A program made the position numbers and the translations under genes. This document shows positions 46,552 to 59,183 of a DNA stretch of 64,000 bases, one piece after another (position 1 is the stretch's first letter; each line of letters begins with the position of its first letter). This stretch comes from Bacteroidota bacterium (GTDB lineage Bacteria; Bacteroidota; Bacteroidia; Sphingobacteriales; Sphingobacteriaceae), in assembly GCA_013286565.1 (NCBI GenBank), contig JABDFM010000003.1, positions 36,678-100,677 on the forward strand, written 5' to 3'. The notes under the pieces were generated by a model. It was given only the letters and a program-made list of their open reading frames with translations, did no database searches and was not told where the DNA came from.

Positions 46552-47229
46552 ATGAAGATACTGATAGTTGAAGATGAAAAAGGTTTAAGGGAAAGTATTG
46601 AAGAGTATTTTATGGAGGCCGGCAATATTTGTGAAACGGCATCCAGTTACCCCGAAGCTATTTCGAAAGTAAATCTTTACCGCTACGATTGCATCCTGCT
46701 GGATATTACGCTGCCCGGTGGTAGCGGTATTGATATACTAAAAACTATTAAAGAAAATAATCATGCCGATGGGGTTCTGATCATTTCAGCAAAAAACTCA
46801 TTGGACGACCGCTTGCAGGGCCTCGACCTTGGCGCTGATGATTACCTGGTAAAACCTTTTCACTTATCCGAACTTAAAGCAAGGGTATCGGCTATTATCA
46901 GGCGTAAAACTTTTAACGGCAGCAACCTGCTCCAGTTTAATGAACTCGCTATCGACCTGCTTGCCAAAACAGTGAAGGCCAACAATCAGCCCATCAAACT
47001 AACCCGTAAGGAGTATGCCCTGCTGCTTTATTTTATAGCGAATAAGGGCAAAGTAGTTTCCAAAAATGCCATTGCCGAACACCTTTGGGGCGATGGCATC
47101 GACATGGCCAATAATTTTGATTTTATTTATTCGCACATCAAAAACCTTAGAAAGAAAATGATCGAGGCCGGCAGTAACGATTATATACAGGCATCATACG
47201 GCATGGGCTATAAGTTTACCGACGAATGA
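46552..47229 (+). CDS. response regulator transcription factor, OmpR/PhoB family
   Basis: receiver motifs (VEDEKGLRES, LLDITLPGGSG, KPFHLSELKARV) and winged helix (TRKEYALLLYFIANKGKVVSK). Confidence 0.94.
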   Translation: MKILIVEDEKGLRESIEEYFMEAGNICETASSYPEAISKVNLYRYDCILLDITLPGGSGIDILKTIKENNHADGVLIISAKNSLDDRLQGLDLGADDYLVKPFHLSELKARVSAIIRRKTFNGSNLLQFNELAIDLLAKTVKANNQPIKLTRKEYALLLYFIANKGKVVSKNAIAEHLWGDGIDMANNFDFIYSHIKNLRKKMIEAGSNDYIQASYGMGYKFTDE

Positions 47230-48512
47230 AGCTATTAGCCCGTTACAACCGCGTAAACCTGGTAACCACCATTGTAGTGATGTTGATTACCGGCATCATT
47301 TATTACCAGGCAATCAGCCTGATACTGACCAAACAGTTGGACAAGGACCTGGCAGTTGAAGAAAATGAGATATTTGAATCAGTTGGCCTTAATCATCAAC
47401 TGCCGCAGGTTTTTGAATCTAATGATCAGCAGATCACCTTTACAGAAGCAAAACGGGGGTCGGTAACACGGCATTTTATTAATACCGTTTACCGTAACAA
47501 AAAGGACGATGATGACCGCCCCAGGAAACACAGGCACAGGCATGAAGAATATGAATCAGGCCGGGGGCTGATCAGTTCCATTACAGTCGGCACCAAATAT
47601 TACCAGATACTAATAGTTGAGTCGAAAGTAGAAACCGAGGATCTTATCCAAATCATTTTCGCCATCACAGCAGGGCTTATTTTATTATTGCTGATCACTT
47701 TATTTGTAACCAACCGGCTGCTGCTAAACCGCTTATGGCAACCCTTTTATAACCTGTTAAAAGAGCTGCGCCTATTCAATGTAGCCGACAGCAAGGATAT
47801 CCCGGTGGTAAGCACAACCATTGATGAGTTTGAGGAATTGAACCAAGCTATCATATCCATGTCGTCGAGGGTAAAAAGCGACTATAAGGACCTGAAAACA
47901 TTTACCGAGAATGCCTCGCATGAGTTGCTTACGCCCATAGCGGTCATTAATTCGAAGTTAGATACACTGATACAAACCGACAACTTCAGTCAGCAGCAAA
48001 GTAAATTACTGAATGATCTGTACAGCGCGGTTTCCAGGCTGACCAGGCTAAATCAATCCCTGCTATTATTGGTTAAAATTGAGAACCGTTTGCTGGAGGG
48101 CGGCCAGCTGATCAATTTGCGCGAATCTGTAGAAGAAATGCTAATACAGTTTGAGGAGATATTCCAGGATAAAGAATTAAAAACAAGCTGCGAACTGGTT
48201 GATAAGGAATTAAATGCGAGCCCATACCTGGTAGATGTATTACTGAATAATTTATTGAGCAATGCCATCAGGCATAACCACAAGGGTGGCGAGATACGCA
48301 TAAAACTGACTAATGAGCAGTTGATGATCCAAAATACCGGCGAAAGCGATCCCTTGCAGAACGACCAGATATTTACCCGTTTCCATAAGTCATCCGGCTC
48401 GGAAGGAAGCGGATTGGGCCTAACTATTTCGCGGCAAATATGTGAGAATTTAGGATTTACGCTTCAGTATAATTTTGAGGATGGTTATCATAGTTTTATC
48501 ATTACGTTTTGA
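47226..48512 (+). CDS. sensor histidine kinase
   Basis: two TMs, NASHELLTPIAVINSKLD H-box, NLLSNAIRHNHKGG N-box, GSGLGLTISRQI G-box; ATGA overlap with upstream regulator. Confidence 0.93.
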   Translation: MKLLARYNRVNLVTTIVVMLITGIIYYQAISLILTKQLDKDLAVEENEIFESVGLNHQLPQVFESNDQQITFTEAKRGSVTRHFINTVYRNKKDDDDRPRKHRHRHEEYESGRGLISSITVGTKYYQILIVESKVETEDLIQIIFAITAGLILLLLITLFVTNRLLLNRLWQPFYNLLKELRLFNVADSKDIPVVSTTIDEFEELNQAIISMSSRVKSDYKDLKTFTENASHELLTPIAVINSKLDTLIQTDNFSQQQSKLLNDLYSAVSRLTRLNQSLLLLVKIENRLLEGGQLINLRESVEEMLIQFEEIFQDKELKTSCELVDKELNASPYLVDVLLNNLLSNAIRHNHKGGEIRIKLTNEQLMIQNTGESDPLQNDQIFTRFHKSSGSEGSGLGLTISRQICENLGFTLQYNFEDGYHSFIITF

Positions 48513-48585
48513 TTTCTGCATCCTAAATTTATCCAGAATTAAATTTTTACTTTAGCAAAGCAAACCGCATAATACCGAATACTTA

Positions 48586-49821
48586 ATGAAGTGGCTCTTT
48601 AGCGTTATCCTGTGCACATTTTTCTACTCTGCTTCGCTGGCTCAAACCAACACATTAGATCATTACCTTGAATTGGCGAAAAGCAACAGTCCTTTATTAA
48701 AAGATCTGCGCAACCAGGTAGCATCAAACCAATTGGATAGCCTGCGGTTGAAGGCTGGATTTAAACCACAGGTGAATGCCACAAGCGCCGGCATTTACGC
48801 CCCTATTGTCGGTGGATATGGTTATTCGGAGCCTATTTTGAACGAGCATACCTTAAACGGTTTAGTAGCGGTGAACCAGGCTATAGTGAGCAAAAGAAAT
48901 GTTAACGCACAGGTGGAGGCCATCACTTTACTATCGCAATCGGTAAATAACGCCGCCAAAATTTCTGAACAGGACCTTAAAAAAGCGGTTACCAATCAAT
49001 ACATCACGGCTTATGGCGATCTGCAGCAAGTGAAGTTCAGTCAAGAAATTGTTAACCTGCTAATCACCGAAGAAGATGTACTCAAAAAACTAACCCGTGC
49101 CAATGTGTACCGTCAAAGCGATTACCTTACTTTTTTGGTGACGCTAAAACAACAACAATTGCAATTGGCCCAGGCACGCCTGCTCTATAAAAATGATTAT
49201 GCCACACTAAATTACCTGGCCGGAGTAGCAGATACCAGCATAGTTGAGCTTTCAACACCCGATCTGCAAACTGCCATGCCGCCGGGTATAAACAGCAGTA
49301 TTTTTTTTGCCCAGTACAGGTTGGACAGTCTTAAACTGATCAACAGCCGCAAGCAGATAGATTTCAGTTATAAACCCAAAACCAATGTTTTTGCCGATGG
49401 TGGTTACAACAGCGATTTTATGGGACAGGCTTATAAAAACTTTGGCGCCAGTGTAGGGTTCAATTTATCCATACCGATATATGATGGTGGGCAACGTAAA
49501 TTGCAGTACCGCAAAATCTCGCTTGAGGAAGAAACGCGGCAGAATTATAAAGCCTTTTTTAATGTACAATACCGGCAGCAACTGGCACAGCTGAACCAGC
49601 AGATCAGCGAGAACGACAAGCTGATGCCGCAGATAGACGACCAGATAAAATACTCGGAGAGCCTGATCAAAGTAGATACCCAGCTTTTGCAAACAGGCGA
49701 TGTAAAAATAGCCGACCTGATACTGGCCATAAATAATTACCTTACTGTCAGGAATCTGAAAACACAAACCATTATCAGCAAATTACAATTGATCAATCAG
49801 TTAAACTACTGGAACAGGTAA
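48586..49821 (+). CDS. TolC family outer membrane protein
   Basis: signal peptide, coiled-coil OEP repeats, FGASVGFNLSIPIYDGGQRKLQ. Confidence 0.88.
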   Translation: MKWLFSVILCTFFYSASLAQTNTLDHYLELAKSNSPLLKDLRNQVASNQLDSLRLKAGFKPQVNATSAGIYAPIVGGYGYSEPILNEHTLNGLVAVNQAIVSKRNVNAQVEAITLLSQSVNNAAKISEQDLKKAVTNQYITAYGDLQQVKFSQEIVNLLITEEDVLKKLTRANVYRQSDYLTFLVTLKQQQLQLAQARLLYKNDYATLNYLAGVADTSIVELSTPDLQTAMPPGINSSIFFAQYRLDSLKLINSRKQIDFSYKPKTNVFADGGYNSDFMGQAYKNFGASVGFNLSIPIYDGGQRKLQYRKISLEEETRQNYKAFFNVQYRQQLAQLNQQISENDKLMPQIDDQIKYSESLIKVDTQLLQTGDVKIADLILAINNYLTVRNLKTQTIISKLQLINQLNYWNR

Positions 49822-49823
49822 AC

Positions 49824-50774
49824 ATGAAAACATTAATTACCAGATACCCGGCTATCAGATACCTGTTCTTTATTGCAGGAATTTCTTTGTGTCTATGCTC
49901 GTGTAAAAGCAATAAGGCAGCAGATGATGAAGATACATCGGATGTAAAAGCACAGACGCCGGTTACCGTAACCACGATCGATCAAAACACCATGGCCGAT
50001 TATATCGACTTGAATGCTACCTCTGTTTTTTTGCAAAAAAACTATATCAAATCAAATGCTATCGGTTACGTGCATCAGGTGAACGCACAACAGGGTCATT
50101 TCGTAAGCAAAGGCGAGCTGCTGTTCACCATTAAAACCAAGGAAGCGCAAGCCATTGGCAACAGCATCAATGTTTTGGATACCACGTTAAAGTTTACAGG
50201 TGTGAACCGAATCAATGCACCGGGGCCAGGTTATATTTCCCAGTTAAACCACCAGACGGGTGACTATGTACAGGACGGCGAAGCGCTGGCTACTGTAAGT
50301 GACCGATCAAGCTTTGTATTTGTAATGCAGCTGCCTTATGAGCTGAAGCAATATGTAAAAGCCGGTCAAAATGTACAGCTTACACTGCCAGGCGGGCAAA
50401 AGCTGGATAGCCGTGTGGCCTCATTTATGCCATCTGTTGATACCGTGGCCCAAACCCAGGGTGTGGTATTAAAAGTGAGCAGCGAACAGCAGATACCCGA
50501 AAACCTGGTTGCCAAAGCACGGATCGTCAAATCAGAAAAAAGCAATACGGCATCCCTGCCAAAAGCTGCGCTGCTGGCTAATGAAACCCAGACTGAGTTT
50601 TGGGTGATGAAACTCATCAACCCCACTACGGCAGTTAAGGTAGCTGTTACCAAGGGCATTGAATCGGGCGACAGGGTGGAGATATTATCGCCCAAGTTTT
50701 CGGCGCAGGATAAGATCATTGTAACCGGTAATTATGGATTGCCCGATACGGCTAAAGTAAAAATTGTACAATAA
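49824..50774 (+). CDS. efflux RND transporter periplasmic adaptor subunit (lipoprotein)
   Basis: SLCLCSCKS lipobox, biotinyl-lipoyl-like hairpin, co-directional with RND permease. Confidence 0.9.
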   Translation: MKTLITRYPAIRYLFFIAGISLCLCSCKSNKAADDEDTSDVKAQTPVTVTTIDQNTMADYIDLNATSVFLQKNYIKSNAIGYVHQVNAQQGHFVSKGELLFTIKTKEAQAIGNSINVLDTTLKFTGVNRINAPGPGYISQLNHQTGDYVQDGEALATVSDRSSFVFVMQLPYELKQYVKAGQNVQLTLPGGQKLDSRVASFMPSVDTVAQTQGVVLKVSSEQQIPENLVAKARIVKSEKSNTASLPKAALLANETQTEFWVMKLINPTTAVKVAVTKGIESGDRVEILSPKFSAQDKIIVTGNYGLPDTAKVKIVQ

Positions 50775-53700
50775 TGAAACGGCCTCTTCAGGATTTTTTC
50801 ATCTCTCATAAAAAGCCACTAAGCCTGGTGCTGACGCTTATTATTGTAGGCGGCCTGTTTTGCTATTCAAAATTGCAAACCTCGCTGTTCCCCGAGATCA
50901 CCTTCCCTAAGATCAAGATCATTGCTGATGAGGGTTTGCAGCCCGTAAATAAAATGATGGTAACGGTAACCAAGCCGCTCGAAAACGCCATCAAACAAGT
51001 TCCCGACCTGAAAACCGTGCGCAGCACTACCAGCCGCGGCAGCTGTGAAATATCAGCCTATATGAGTTGGGATGCGGATATCGACCTGTCGCAACAACGC
51101 ATTCAAACCAGTATCGACCAGATCAAAAACGATCTGCCTGCTGATGTGAATATCACGGTAGAGAAGATGAACCCCTCTATCCTGCCGGTGAGCGGCTATA
51201 CGCTTGAAAGCCATAGCCGTACCCCTATCGAATTGCGACAGCTGGCAACTTATACGGTAAAACCATTTCTTTCGCAGGTGGATGGTGTATCTGAAATAAG
51301 GATCATCGGTGGTAAAGTAAAGGAATACTGGCTCACGCTGAACAAGCAAAAGATGAGTTCGCTCGGCCTCACACCTGATATTATCAATACCACGCTGAGC
51401 AACACCAATTTTGTAAAATCAGAAGGCTACCTGTCTGATTATAAACGGTTTTACCTCACCGTTACGGATGCCACCATTAATGCTAAGGATCAACTGGCAA
51501 ACCTGGTGATCAGCAACAATAAAAAGAGGGTAGTACGATTAAAAGACTTTGCCGATATAGCGGTAAATGAGGGCATTGAATATATTAAAGTAAATGCCAA
51601 CGGGCGCGATGGTGTACTGATCGCAGTGATCAAACAGCCAAATGCCAACCTGGTTTCGCTCTCGGCTGACATGGACGCGAAAGTGGCCGACCTAAAAAAA
51701 CTGCTCCCGAAGGATGTTACTATTAAACCCTATTATATCCAGGCTGATTTTGTAAACGATTCGATAAAAAGTGTGAGCGACAGCCTGTGGATAGGCTTGT
51801 TGCTGGCCATTATTGTCGCCATTATTTTCTTGCGCTCACTAAAGGCCAGCGCTACTATTTTGATCACTATCCCGGTTACGCTTTGCCTGACGCTGATCGT
51901 GCTTTATTCCATCGGTTACACTTTTAACATCATGACGCTTGGCGCCATCGCTGCAGCCATAGGCTTGATCATTGACGATGCTATTGTGGTGGTTGAGCAG
52001 ATACACCGCACGCATGAAGAAAACCCGGAGGAGCATACGTTAAAGTTGCTTCAAAAAGCGATAGACTACCTTTTCCCGGCAATGGTGGGTTCATCTATCA
52101 GCACCATTGTAATATTTATCCCTTTTGTTTTGATGAGCGGGGTTGCGGGCGCTTATTTTAAGGTATTGACCAATACCATGATCATTACGCTGGTATGTTC
52201 GTTTTTTGTTACCTGGATAGGCTTGCCTGTAATTTATTTATTGCTTACCAAACGTAAGCATGTCATTAAAGATAAAAAAGAAGAGGTACACCATGTTAAA
52301 AAACAAAAATGGGTGTCCTGGTTTATACTTCGCCCATGGTTAAGTTTAGTGATCATGGCTGGGTTAGTTGCCGTTATTGTAATTATACCCAAGTTGTTGG
52401 ATACCGGTTTCCTGCCCGAAATGGACGAAGGCAGTATTGTGCTGGATTATGCTTCGCCGCCCGGAACCTCATTGGAAGAGACCGACCGTATGCTGCATGA
52501 AGTTGAAAAGATCATCGCCAAACAGCCGGAGGTTGAAGCGTATTCGCGGCGGACAGGGACGCAGATGGGATTTTTTATTACTGAACCCAACACCGGCGAT
52601 TACCTGATACAATTAAAGAAAAAACGCGATAAAACGACTGAAGAAGTGATCAGCGAACTGCGTAAAGAAATAGCGGAAGACCAGCCGGTATTAACCGCAC
52701 AAAAAGTAGAATTTGGCCAGGTGATCACAGATATGCTTGGAGATTTGACCACTTCTGCCGAGCCTATCGAGATCAAGCTTTTTGGCGACGACCCGCAGAA
52801 ACTGCAAAGCTTATCCAAACAAATTGCTGATGCCGCACGCGCTGTAAAAGGCACCGCTGATGTGTTGGACGGCATAGTTATAGCGGGCCCATCAGTAAGT
52901 ATCGATCCGCAATACAGCAAACTGGCGCAATATAATATCACCCCAACCAGCCTTCAGTTCCAATTGCAAACGGCTTTGCAGGGGAATATTATTGGCAATT
53001 TATTAGAGCGCGAACAATTGTCGCCCATCCGTATGGTTTACCCCGGCAACAACAACCTTCGTGTTAATGACATAAAAAACCAGAACATATTTACACCAAC
53101 CGGTAAATTGATACCTATCAGCGAACTGGCCACCATTGACCTGAAACCCGGCGAGGCCGAGATCAACCGCGAAAACCTGCAATCAATGGGTATTATTACA
53201 GCAAGACTGGATAATGGGAGTATTGGAACTGTAATACCCCAGATCCAAAAAAGCATCGCCCAAAAAGTAAGCCTGCCACAAGGATATCATATTGAATACG
53301 GCGGCGATTATGCACAGCAGCAACAATCGTTCAAAGAGCTTATGATGATATTGATAACTGCGAGCCTGCTGGTATTTGGTGTGATCCTGTTCCTGTTCAA
53401 ACAATTCAGGATAGCGATACTCATTTTAATTATTGCTGTATTGGGAACCAGCGGCAGTCTGCTGGCCTTATTTCTTACTCACACACCACTTAATGTGGGC
53501 AGCTATACCGGGCTGATCATGATCGTAGGTATTATTGGTGAAAATGCCATATTTACCTTTTTACAGTTTAAACAAAGGGCACTGGAGAGTATAGCCACTG
53601 ATCCCGATAATATAAAGGCGTGCGTCAATGAAGCCATTGTATTCTCCATATCTACCCGGCTTCGCCCCAAATTAATGACGGCCATAGGCGCTATTGTGGC

Positions 53701-53890
53701 TTTGATGCCATTGGCATTAGGAATAGGCGCCGGGGCACAGCTTCACCAACCTTTGGCCATAGCTGTTATAGGCGGTTTTATTATAGCATTACCACTTTTG
53801 CTGATCGTTTTACCAAGTATGATGCGAATAGCGTACCGCTCGGGTAAGTTCCACCAGGTACAAGACAATATTGTGAATAAACCAGCATAA
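50774..53890 (+). CDS. efflux RND transporter permease
   Basis: 1038 aa, ISAYMSWDADIDLSQQRIQ, IAAAIGLIIDDAIVVVEQI, GLIMIVGIIGENAIFTFLQF, ALMPLALGIGAGAQLHQPLAIAVIGG. Confidence 0.95.
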   Translation: MKRPLQDFFISHKKPLSLVLTLIIVGGLFCYSKLQTSLFPEITFPKIKIIADEGLQPVNKMMVTVTKPLENAIKQVPDLKTVRSTTSRGSCEISAYMSWDADIDLSQQRIQTSIDQIKNDLPADVNITVEKMNPSILPVSGYTLESHSRTPIELRQLATYTVKPFLSQVDGVSEIRIIGGKVKEYWLTLNKQKMSSLGLTPDIINTTLSNTNFVKSEGYLSDYKRFYLTVTDATINAKDQLANLVISNNKKRVVRLKDFADIAVNEGIEYIKVNANGRDGVLIAVIKQPNANLVSLSADMDAKVADLKKLLPKDVTIKPYYIQADFVNDSIKSVSDSLWIGLLLAIIVAIIFLRSLKASATILITIPVTLCLTLIVLYSIGYTFNIMTLGAIAAAIGLIIDDAIVVVEQIHRTHEENPEEHTLKLLQKAIDYLFPAMVGSSISTIVIFIPFVLMSGVAGAYFKVLTNTMIITLVCSFFVTWIGLPVIYLLLTKRKHVIKDKKEEVHHVKKQKWVSWFILRPWLSLVIMAGLVAVIVIIPKLLDTGFLPEMDEGSIVLDYASPPGTSLEETDRMLHEVEKIIAKQPEVEAYSRRTGTQMGFFITEPNTGDYLIQLKKKRDKTTEEVISELRKEIAEDQPVLTAQKVEFGQVITDMLGDLTTSAEPIEIKLFGDDPQKLQSLSKQIADAARAVKGTADVLDGIVIAGPSVSIDPQYSKLAQYNITPTSLQFQLQTALQGNIIGNLLEREQLSPIRMVYPGNNNLRVNDIKNQNIFTPTGKLIPISELATIDLKPGEAEINRENLQSMGIITARLDNGSIGTVIPQIQKSIAQKVSLPQGYHIEYGGDYAQQQQSFKELMMILITASLLVFGVILFLFKQFRIAILILIIAVLGTSGSLLALFLTHTPLNVGSYTGLIMIVGIIGENAIFTFLQFKQRALESIATDPDNIKACVNEAIVFSISTRLRPKLMTAIGAIVALMPLALGIGAGAQLHQPLAIAVIGGFIIALPLLLIVLPSMMRIAYRSGKFHQVQDNIVNKPA

Positions 53891-53949
53891 ATCAAATTTC
53901 CTACAGAATTATAAGTGATATTTATCAATCAATTATTTACAATAAAACC

Positions 53950-54954
53950 ATGAAAAAGAAGATCATTCTATCTGTTATTTGCTTATTAAGCATCGGGCTA
54001 ATTCCCGGCATTTTACATGCACAAACTTATGTATTAGATAAAAAAATACCCCTTACCGGTGATGGCGGTTATGATTATGTGTCTATTGACCATGTAAATC
54101 ACCGTCTATATGCTTCGCACGGCACTTCGGTAAATGTAGTTGACCTGGAGACCGAAAAACAGGTTGGTATAATCGAAGGTATGAAAGGCGTACACGGCAT
54201 TGCCATAGCCAACAAATGGAACAGGGGCTTTATAAGTGACGGAAGAGCAGACGCTGTAGTGGCTTTCGATCTGAAAACGCTTAAAATAATTGCCACTATA
54301 CCTGTAGATGCAAAAGGCCCGGATGCTATTATATACGATCCATATACTGACCGTATATTTAGCTTCAATGGCGAAAGTAACAACTCATCTGTGATCAATC
54401 CAGAAACACTGAAACAGGTAGGAACGGTTGCACTTGGCGGCGGCCCTGAATTTGCAGCTGCCGATGGCAAAGGAAAAATATACAACAACCTGGAGGATAA
54501 AAACAGCCTGAACGTGATTGACAGCAAAACTCTTAAAGTGGTAAAAAACTATTCATTATCACCATGCGGCGGACCAACCGGAATAGCATTGGATGAGAAG
54601 AACCAACGTGCATTTTCTGTGTGCCGCGAAAATAAAGGAATGAGCGTGGTTGATATTAATACTGGCAATGTGGTTGCTACCGTACCAATCGGCGCAGGGG
54701 TTGATGCGGTTGCCTACGACCCGGAAACCCACCTGGTGTTTTGCTCAAACGGCGATGCAACTACCACTATAATTAAACAGGAAAGTGCCGATAAATATAG
54801 CGTTATACAAACTTTGCAAACCCAAACCCGTGCAAAAACATTGGCATTGGATACCAAAACGCACAAAATATATTTAAGTGTTGCCCAAATGGAGCCAGGC
54901 ACACGTAAAGCCCTGCCAAATACGTTTACTATCTTAGTGTATAAGCAACAATAA
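53950..54954 (+). CDS. YncE-like beta-propeller secreted protein
   Basis: signal peptide; repeated SIDHVNHRLYASHGTSVNVVDLETEKQVG / SVVDINTGNVVATVPIGAGVDAVAYDPET blades. Confidence 0.88.
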   Translation: MKKKIILSVICLLSIGLIPGILHAQTYVLDKKIPLTGDGGYDYVSIDHVNHRLYASHGTSVNVVDLETEKQVGIIEGMKGVHGIAIANKWNRGFISDGRADAVVAFDLKTLKIIATIPVDAKGPDAIIYDPYTDRIFSFNGESNNSSVINPETLKQVGTVALGGGPEFAAADGKGKIYNNLEDKNSLNVIDSKTLKVVKNYSLSPCGGPTGIALDEKNQRAFSVCRENKGMSVVDINTGNVVATVPIGAGVDAVAYDPETHLVFCSNGDATTTIIKQESADKYSVIQTLQTQTRAKTLALDTKTHKIYLSVAQMEPGTRKALPNTFTILVYKQQ

Positions 54955-55078: not shown

Positions 55079-56083
55079 ATGGCAGTCAAAACCGATTTTA
55101 TACACTCAACAGAATCTGAACCGCACCGGATAAGAACGAAGAAGATTTTAAAACAGTTTCCAGAGACAAGGGGTCTGATCGGTAAAAATCCACTAACCTT
55201 TTTAGTTATTTTGGGCATCGTAGGATCGATGATTGGCATATCGTGGTTGGTTCGCGATCAATCATGGTGGATTATTTTTGCAGCTGCATACTTGTATGGC
55301 GCCTTTGCCAATCATGCGCTGTTTGTGATGATACACGAGTGTGTACACCAGCTTTTGTTTAAGAACGCATTGGCCAACCGTTGGGCGGGCATGATCGCCA
55401 ATTTGCCTCACATCATACCGGGCGCCATTTCATTTGAAAGGTATCACATCAAACACCATTCTTTCCAGGGGATCCATGAACTTGATGCCGACCTGCCTAA
55501 CAAGTGGGAAGCTAAACTCATCAATAATTATTTCCTGGGAAAAGTACTTTGGCTCTTTTTCTTTCCGGTGTTCCAGGCAACGCGTGTATCACGATTAAAA
55601 GAGATCAAATTTTATGATGGCTGGCTTTTAGTTAACATCCTGATGCAGATCGCCTTCACAACTGCTATCTGGTATTTCTTTGGGATCAAGGCTGTCGGGT
55701 TTATGTTTATTAGTTTCTGGTTTTCGATAGGTCTTCACCCTGTTGGTGCCCGCTGGGTACAGGAGCATTACATGACTTTTGAAAGTGAGCAGGAAACATA
55801 CAGCTACTACGGCCCTTTGAACACCGTTGCTTTTAATGTGGGCTATCACAATGAACACCATGATTTTCCATCGATTCCGTGGAACAGGCTGCCCCAGTTA
55901 AAAAAGGCCGCTCCTGAATATTATGATACCTTATTATATCATGGTTCATGGTTCAAGCTGTTCTTCCGTTTCCTTTTTGAGCGCGAAATATCACTTTTTA
56001 ATCGCATCGTGCGAAAGGAACGCGGCAAAGTTGCATTAACTGACGTATCAAAACCTGATGTTGAAGTAAATGTATTGGTATAA
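55079..56083 (+). CDS. fatty acid desaturase family protein resembling sphingolipid delta-4 desaturase (DEGS/DES1)
   Basis: three His boxes HECVH, HIKHH, HNEHH; ETYSYYGPLNTVAFNVGYHNEHHDFPSIP; N-terminal ESEPHRIRTKKILKQFPETRGLIGKNP resembles the lipid-desaturase N-terminal domain. Confidence 0.85.
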   Translation: MAVKTDFIHSTESEPHRIRTKKILKQFPETRGLIGKNPLTFLVILGIVGSMIGISWLVRDQSWWIIFAAAYLYGAFANHALFVMIHECVHQLLFKNALANRWAGMIANLPHIIPGAISFERYHIKHHSFQGIHELDADLPNKWEAKLINNYFLGKVLWLFFFPVFQATRVSRLKEIKFYDGWLLVNILMQIAFTTAIWYFFGIKAVGFMFISFWFSIGLHPVGARWVQEHYMTFESEQETYSYYGPLNTVAFNVGYHNEHHDFPSIPWNRLPQLKKAAPEYYDTLLYHGSWFKLFFRFLFEREISLFNRIVRKERGKVALTDVSKPDVEVNVLV

Positions 56084-56116: not shown

Positions 56117-56959
56117 ATGGCAAACCTGCATAGTTTTTTTTCGGTACATGAAGATGCGGCACAGGTAATTTTGTATGCCGGTATAATAACCTCTTTATGG
56201 GTTGCAGAAGTACTTGTTTCAACTGACAGTTTAAAAACAAAGTTTAAACACTCATCAGTTAACATGCTGTTTATTTTCACAGCACTGCCTATACAGCTCT
56301 TACTCACTACTTTTATTATCATTGCCTCTAAATGGGACAATAGTCACCACTGGGGCCTGCTCAATTTAATGCCATGGCATGGTAAGGGGGTGGCGTATTA
56401 TATTGTCGCATTTGTATTGCTTGATTTTTGCGAATATACCTACCATGTGATCATGCATAAAGTTGATGCGCTGTGGAAATTCCACCTGGTGCATCACAGC
56501 GACCTTAAAGTTGATGTATCAACTACGATAAGGGAGCATCCGGGCGAAACAGTTATACGCACCACATTTTTAATACTTTGGGTATTTTTACTCGGCCCTG
56601 TTATTGGTGTTTTAATAGTACGGCAAATATTTCAATCATTCTCCAACATTGTAGCGCATACCGAATTCAGGCTATCAAACACTGCCAATAAGATCATCGG
56701 GTTGATTTTTATCACCCCAAACCTGCACCATGTACACCATCATTACAAACTGCCTTATACCGATTGTAATTATGGCGATGTGTTGAGTATATGGGATAGG
56801 ATGTTCGGTACGTTTAATGAGTTGGAAAGAGAGGATACTCATTTCGGTATCGATACCCACATGGACGAAAACATCAACTGCAAGTTTGCAAATATCGTTA
56901 AGATACCATTTCAAAAACTGGAACGTAATGGTTATGGGGACGACCATCCCTCAAATTAA
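56117..56959 (+). CDS. sterol desaturase / fatty acid hydroxylase superfamily membrane protein
   Basis: HVIMHK, HLVHHSD, HHVHHHY histidine clusters in a polytopic protein; ATG 56117 preferred over 56105. Confidence 0.88.
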   Translation: MANLHSFFSVHEDAAQVILYAGIITSLWVAEVLVSTDSLKTKFKHSSVNMLFIFTALPIQLLLTTFIIIASKWDNSHHWGLLNLMPWHGKGVAYYIVAFVLLDFCEYTYHVIMHKVDALWKFHLVHHSDLKVDVSTTIREHPGETVIRTTFLILWVFLLGPVIGVLIVRQIFQSFSNIVAHTEFRLSNTANKIIGLIFITPNLHHVHHHYKLPYTDCNYGDVLSIWDRMFGTFNELEREDTHFGIDTHMDENINCKFANIVKIPFQKLERNGYGDDHPSN

Positions 56960-58271: not shown

Positions 58272-59183
58272 ATGAGCCGGTCAAAAAAAATAAAGATCAT
58301 ATTACCCATCGTAATCATTCTCTTTTTTGGGGCCTATGCCGAACACAGGTATGTTCAGCAAAAATGGAATATAACAGGCCATCTGCAAAATAAAGAGATG
58401 GACGAGATATCGGGCATCGCGGCATCGGGAATACATAATGATATTTATTATGTAGAAAATGACAGCGGGGATACCAGCCGTTTTTTCGCTATAAACCCCC
58501 AGGGGGAAATAAAATCCGTAATTTATTATAAAGGCGATCCCAAAATCAGACTTGGTGTACATGATTGCGAGGACATAGCCGTAGGAATTGGCCCGGTTAA
58601 AGGGAAAAGTTATGTGTATGTAGGCGACATAGGCGATAATAATGCAAAGTATCCATACATCACCGTTTACCGGCTGGAGGAACAAAAAACATGGATAGGT
58701 AAGGATAGCATCATAAAGGCCAATGCTGTACCTATACACCTCAAATATCCCGACGGCCCGCGTGATGCCGAATCGCTGATGATCGACCCTATTGAAAAAC
58801 TGATCTATATTGTTTCAAAACGCACTGACTCGGTAACCGTATATACCACTCCTTTAAATTTCAAAGCTAACGATACCCTGATGCTTACTAAGCGCTGCAA
58901 ATTGTATTTTAATGGTTTCAGGCCCTTTAAATGGATCACTGCCGGGGATATTTCAAAGGATGGGCAGCAGGTGCTTTTGAAGGATTATGTTAAAGTATAT
59001 TACTGGAAACGCAAGAATAATGAGCCTATATGGAAAACCATGCAAAGAAAGCCCACCGAGCTCCCTTACGAGGCGGAAAAACAAGGTGAGGCCATTGGCT
59101 TCACTCCTGATGGCAAAGGTTATTATACCACCAGTGAGGGCGTTTTCGCACCTATTTACTATTATAAAATTCCGGGGAATTAA
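58272..59183 (+). CDS. hypothetical N-terminally anchored beta-propeller-like protein
   Basis: N-terminal TM, EMDEISGIAASGIHNDIYYVENDSGDTSRFFAIN, repeated strand pattern. Confidence 0.65.
   Translation: MSRSKKIKIILPIVIILFFGAYAEHRYVQQKWNITGHLQNKEMDEISGIAASGIHNDIYYVENDSGDTSRFFAINPQGEIKSVIYYKGDPKIRLGVHDCEDIAVGIGPVKGKSYVYVGDIGDNNAKYPYITVYRLEEQKTWIGKDSIIKANAVPIHLKYPDGPRDAESLMIDPIEKLIYIVSKRTDSVTVYTTPLNFKANDTLMLTKRCKLYFNGFRPFKWITAGDISKDGQQVLLKDYVKVYYWKRKNNEPIWKTMQRKPTELPYEAEKQGEAIGFTPDGKGYYTTSEGVFAPIYYYKIPGN

Follow-up and report, generated by a model that had tools for sequence, protein, structure and literature searches.

Sphingolipid delta-4 desaturases are distinguished by an N-terminal Lipid_DES domain that is specific to these enzymes. 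DEGS2, a member of the same family as DEGS1, is bifunctional (delta-4 desaturase/C4-hydroxylase), a change of few residues can turn a desaturase of this fold into a hydroxylase or the reverse, and enzymes of the DEGS1 family can have some acyl activity. In bacteria, the ceramide pathway described in Caulobacter and Bacteroides comprises SPT, a bacterial ceramide synthase and CerR, and as described ends at dihydroceramide, without a desaturation step (PMC10191378). According to the same review, published in 2023, the bacterial product is dihydroceramide and not ceramide, a statement that counts against the reading preferred below. The sulfonolipid pathway initiated by SulA/CFAT proceeds through a parallel 2-amino-3-hydroxy base, and the paper on SulA does not mention a desaturase (PMC9304779). 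The polyketide-type sphingolipid synthases SgaAB combine a PKS with an alpha-oxoamine synthase (AOS) (PMC12134224). No report of a bacterial DES (DEGS1-family desaturase), and none of a DES in the sulfonolipid pathway, was found in the literature searched.

Here, we analyzed a 64,000-nucleotide stretch of DNA (the window) that is part of contig 3 of a Mucilaginibacter genome (Sphingobacteriaceae; 3.2 Mb, 72% complete). An earlier note on this DNA had interpreted one of its genes as a sphingolipid delta-4 desaturase and had correctly pointed to Sphingobacteriaceae. This interpretation is supported by a match to Lipid_DES and by the grouping observed in a quick tree, with substrate and regiochemistry standing as predictions. 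From sequence comparisons and genomic context, we consider that the enzyme probably introduces a delta-4 double bond into the sphingoid base of dihydroceramide-type lipids. What is new is a bacterial branch within an enzyme family already known, and not the kind of enzyme. Such proteins are surely present in databases already, under the name 'fatty acid desaturase'; the gene itself is not unknown, but its meaning appears to be undescribed in the literature searched.

A DEGS1-like desaturase in Mucilaginibacter

The FA_desaturase domain of the window protein was detected with Pfam (7e-27, 95 bits vs a cut-off of 29.7). The three histidine boxes reported earlier (HECVH, HIKHH and HNEHH) are all present in the ORF and correspond to the HX3H, HX2HH and HX2HH di-iron boxes within the FA_desaturase core. 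The Lipid_DES-like N-terminus, for which the earlier note proposed a Pfam search, indeed scored above the cut-off of the model (Table 1), and the likeness of the C-terminal block to DEGS1 held as well, ETYSYYGPLN...FNVGYHNEHHDFP being common to both proteins.

Table 1. Coordinates of the desaturase gene, its motifs and related features. Locations without a handle are positions in the window.
Feature	Location	Strand	Details
DEGS1-family (Lipid_DES + FA_desaturase) membrane desaturase	55079..56083	+	ATG start, 334 aa
Lipid_DES N-terminal domain, aa 4-38	55088..55192	+	PF08557 6.4e-10, 38.8 bits, cut-off 23
His box 1 HECVH, aa 86-90	55334..55348	+	H86, H90 invariant in 45 relatives, same in DEGS1
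His box 2 HIKHH, aa 123-127	55445..55459	+	H123, H126, H127 invariant in 45 relatives
His box 3 HNEHH, aa 257-261	55847..55861	+	H257, H260, H261 invariant in 45 relatives
ETYSYYGPLN block, aa 239-248, family signature	55793..55822	+	E239, T240, S242, Y243, Y244, G245, N248 invariant, same in DEGS1
FA_hydroxylase-superfamily (PF04116) hydroxylase directly downstream of desaturase	56117..56959	+	PF04116 7.4e-27; weak OlsE likeness
303-aa protein near desaturase	58272..59183		No Pfam match
Genes directly upstream of desaturase	46552..54954
Host SPT	G000:C42:15985-17166		744 bits vs NF047600 and 616 bits vs solved bacterial SPT
Host SulA/CFAT	G000:C24:10165-11391		First enzyme of sulfonolipid synthesis
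Compact Legionella cluster (AMP-ligase/ACP/alpha-oxoamine-synthase fusion, PAP2, CDP-alcohol transferase, FA_hydroxylase, SDR, DES)	L109 1305-8915; L117 1092-8915		Legionella gratiana (L109); Legionella sp. PC1000 (L117)
Second DES-like paralogues	L209 9816-10823; L210 8795-9802; L211 9342-10349; L212 9039-10046

The strong resemblance to DEGS1 proposed earlier was recovered by BLASTP, which aligned the window protein end to end with human DEGS1 (236 bits; over 322 aa, 40% of the residues are identical and 60% positive). A working version of the human sequence rather than a database record was used here; as a control, it scored 74 bits against Lipid_DES. The window protein shares with DEGS1/DES1 of animals, fungi and plants the Lipid_DES domain, the FA_desaturase core, the three histidine boxes and the ETYSYYGPLN...NVGYHNEHHDFP block. 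Across 45 diverse bacterial relatives, 66 positions are at least 90% conserved, 61 of which are identical in the working version of DEGS1; the remaining five (G35, L92, W182, S212 and Q238) have another residue in the human protein. Identity to DEGS1 is highest, up to 48%, for a Balneolaceae member (L021/L051). Unlike its human counterpart, the window protein lacks Gly2 and belongs to a host without an ER, where its activity is predicted.

The gene was found in 139 of the 150 Mucilaginibacter genomes (115 of the 118 good genomes), and comparison with a 91%-identical relative (L002) revealed strong purifying selection (dN 0.057, dS ~2.1). Therefore, the desaturase gene is not a chance ORF. In addition, a second DES-like paralogue (~36-40% identity), with neighbors that are unrelated, is encoded in no fewer than nine Mucilaginibacter genomes. 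The names CrtW, DesA and GntB suggested by NCBIfam for the window protein were rejected, as their scores lie far under the cut-offs. A viral origin was likewise dismissed: no relative was found in IMG/VR, and the BFVD fold matches are distant giant-virus desaturases only.

A sequence search of the PDB returned no homologue among solved structures; in this respect, a bacterial DES family would be a source of DEGS1 homologues. AlphaFold2 modeling with a 45-sequence alignment produced a model with pLDDT 92 and pTM 0.90. Foldseek matched this model to chains of the Ycf2/Orf2971-FtsHi motor complexes, to the alkane monooxygenase AlkB and, more weakly, to human stearoyl-CoA desaturase (SCD), matches that are consistent with a membrane di-iron fold.

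The protein is a desaturase of the DES/DEGS family, of the integral-membrane di-iron type and with a predicted membrane location. Two irons would be bound by its histidines, and catalysis would depend on O2 and on an electron donor provided by the cell. Its most likely reaction is the removal of hydrogens at C4 and C5 from a saturated long-chain base, either in dihydroceramide or in a complete dihydroceramide lipid, which in Mucilaginibacter is probably of the inositol-phosphate type. This would yield a 4-unsaturated base of the sphingosine type, of predicted double-bond position and geometry.

Residues that separate DEGS1 from DEGS2

DEGS2 has its family and domain in common with the window protein and is bifunctional, which raises the possibility that the latter is a C4-hydroxylase making phytosphingosine-type bases instead of a desaturase. 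In a working version of human DEGS2, the boxes read HDxxH and HVEHH, with an aspartate in box 1 and a valine in box 3. In contrast, the window protein and at least 90% of the bacterial members have HExxH and HNEHH, as does the working version of DEGS1. The box 1 glutamate (E87) and the box 3 asparagine (N258) would thus favor a desaturase over a hydroxylase outcome. Furthermore, the host carries separate FA_hydroxylase genes, both in its sphingolipid cluster and beside the desaturase, and we regard a DEGS2-like hydroxylase as improbable.

Phylogeny and distribution of bacterial DES

In a quick tree using as outgroup ordinary desaturases, mostly of the DES carriers' own genera, the bacterial DES and human DEGS1/2 fell on one side of a branch that excluded the ordinary desaturases (97% SH-aLRT). 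In a careful tree, the long-branched outgroup was split, and DES plus the human proteins as one clade was not rejected (p-AU 0.41). The position with DEGS1/2 and away from ordinary desaturases, the outcome on which the earlier note had staked its interpretation, was therefore obtained in the quick tree, and the careful analysis did not reject it. Altogether, these comparisons support the assignment of the window protein to the DES/DEGS family.

The FA_desaturase domain and the histidine boxes are common to all such enzymes, and some acyl activity is possible within the DEGS1 family, so that an ordinary acyl-lipid or acyl-CoA fatty-acid desaturase with a mere resemblance to DEGS1 has to be considered. 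We find this very improbable, as Lipid_DES occurs in the window protein and, together with FA_desaturase, in all 45 diverse bacterial relatives scanned, the DEGS-specific ETYSYYGPLN and HNEHHDFP blocks are invariant or nearly so, and the tree groups these proteins with DEGS1/2, not with DesA/DesC-type enzymes. The ordinary desaturases found in the window's genus are only distantly related to it.

When each species was represented by a single genome, at least 582 bacterial loci encoding a relative were returned. The 80 loci inspected bear names from Bacteroidota, Balneolota, Ignavibacteriota, Myxococcota, Bdellovibrionota, Legionella and Nitrospinota; a few of them sit in MAGs that may be misbinned. 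For instance, in MAGs labelled Thermoanaerobaculia, Verrucomicrobia and Rickettsiales (L062, L075 and L087), DES is nested among Bacteroidota sequences, likely as a result of misbinned contigs or recent transfer. Lipid_DES was detected in 30 of the 296 genomes of a phylum sample and in none of 14 control genomes.

Human DEGS1/2, the only eukaryotic sequences in the trees and both working versions, grouped with Myxococcota and a Bacteriovoracaceae member (96% in the quick tree, 89/93 in the careful tree), and a tree with all bacterial DES as a single clade was not rejected (p-AU 0.21). A speculative scenario, possible but not the one that we would expect to hold in all its parts, is that the DES family has most of its depth in bacteria rather than eukaryotes, that ceramides with true sphingosine-type unsaturation, and possibly also 4-unsaturated sulfonolipids, are produced by hundreds of bacterial species, and that the animal and fungal enzyme goes back to a Myxococcota/Bdellovibrionota-type bacterial gene. 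In that case, eukaryotes would owe the final step of their ceramide synthesis to bacteria, despite the convergent rise of ceramide synthases.

DES and sphingolipid genes

Like the bacteria in which the ceramide pathway was described, the host possesses an SPT gene scoring over the cut-off of the model and an adjacent gene coding for a ceramide-synthase-like GNAT, i.e., the pathway to the predicted substrate. The label 'bacterial ceramide synthase' given to this type of GNAT is one that we take from position and known biology, not from a curated model. On contig C42, SPT is followed by genes encoding this GNAT, myo-inositol-phosphate synthase (MIPS), PgpA, a CDP-alcohol transferase, an FA_hydroxylase and PAP2, and this gene set is an inositol-phosphoceramide-type cluster, also found in G022, G041 and G060. 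The desaturase gene lies outside the SPT cluster in Mucilaginibacter, and in the host it is on another contig. The FA_hydroxylase of C42 differs from the one located directly downstream of the desaturase.

In other genomes, DES is located inside the ceramide cluster itself. In L087, L081 and L091, DES is clustered with SPT, a ceramide-synthase-like GNAT, an SDR, FabA/KAS-like genes and a CDP-alcohol phosphotransferase; SPT of L087 scored 641 bits against NF047600 (cut-off 640). The L081 and L091 clusters also contain genes for PEP mutase, phosphonopyruvate decarboxylase and 2-aminoethylphosphonate (AEP) transaminase, as named by NCBIfam in L091, a gene set that would point to ceramide aminoethylphosphonate. 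In Bacteriovorax L098, an SPT-like AOS, a GNAT and an epimerase are encoded ~5-8 kb from DES. Overall, SPT neighbors DES at 4 of the 80 loci, in two lineages, vs ~0.3 expected by chance. The AOS near DES in L073 was left out of this count, as it looked BioF-like when judged by eye from its start. G005 and G140, with DES ~15 kb from SPT, were also discounted, unrelated genes standing in between and close relatives lacking the arrangement.

Beyond the four SPT-linked loci, an AOS fusion was found near DES at two Legionella loci. There, DES follows SDR and FA_hydroxylase genes, near genes encoding PAP2, a CDP-alcohol transferase and an AMP-ligase/ACP/AOS fusion. This compact cluster looks like an undescribed sphingoid-lipid pathway. 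The AOS domain is fused to an acyl-activating enzyme and ACP, instead of the PKS plus AOS found in SgaAB, and the fusion is possibly another non-canonical sphingoid-base synthase. The module formed by the CDP-alcohol transferase, FA_hydroxylase and PAP2 is found on C42 too, with 38% identity between the FA_hydroxylases, thereby tying the arrangement of the host SPT cluster to that of the Legionella DES.

At the scale of the phylum sample, DES was present in 7 of the 11 genomes with a strict SPT vs 23 of 285 (Fisher p 1.4e-5), and the association persisted more weakly without the genus of the window (p 0.017), both tests being uncorrected for phylogeny. Co-occurrence is not strict, as 4 of the 11 SPT+ genomes lack DES. 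We also observed that, beyond Bacteroidia, an AOS-family gene (~475-525 bits vs the SPT model, under the cut-off) adjoining a ceramide-synthase-like GNAT recurs across many families of the phylum, whether DES is present or not.

Given that the DES family is widespread in bacteria and partly located in sphingolipid clusters, the lipids of some bacteria probably include sphingosine-type or other 4-unsaturated species. If true, this would affect lipidomics assignments of such lipids to host or microbe, claims about host signaling, and the evolutionary history of the ceramide pathway.

Sulfonolipids as a possible alternative substrate

The main rival substrate is N-acylcapnine, on which the enzyme may act as well as or instead of ceramide, converting its capnine base into that of a 4-unsaturated sulfonolipid. 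N-acylcapnine and dihydroceramide have one 2-amido-3-hydroxy-alkyl core, and the host genome carries a SulA/CFAT gene, the family being identified by PDB entries 7u7h and 28eh (593-596 bits vs 240 for SPT). Moreover, several DES+ Bacteroidia without a strict SPT (G294, G298, G396, Aquirufa and Filimonas) have a SulA/CFAT-like gene, in Aquirufa and Filimonas as a second AOS, and for this reason sulfonolipids are a live alternative. However, SulA is no predictor of DES: among the sampled Bacteroidia, with or without DES, SulA occurs in 70/73 genomes and DES in 10/73. In families f16 and f34, outside Bacteroidia, the DES+ genomes gave no SulA match at the threshold used and have instead an SPT-like AOS adjoining a ceramide-synthase-like GNAT. 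Furthermore, clusters that contain DES hold SPT-type genes, not SulA. We therefore consider a sulfonolipid desaturase, or an enzyme acting on both classes, to be unlikely, and retain dihydroceramide-type lipids as the preferred substrate. The target core would be a 2-amido-3-hydroxy long-chain base; because the amide and the 3-hydroxyl are common to dihydroceramide and N-acylcapnine, such a core would explain both genomic associations.

Immediate neighborhood of the desaturase gene

The FA_hydroxylase gene directly follows the desaturase gene in 4 of the 25 Mucilaginibacter loci examined (the window and L018-L020). This low occurrence rules out the hydroxylase as an obligatory operon partner; it is possibly an optional one. 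Upstream of the desaturase, regulator- and sensor-like genes precede apparent outer-membrane, adaptor and RND efflux genes and a gene coding for a YncE-like beta-propeller; the RND and propeller genes recur upstream in many relatives. The 303-aa protein is encoded near the desaturase in most Mucilaginibacter loci examined, with ~53-77% identity among loci, and stays even where other neighbors change.
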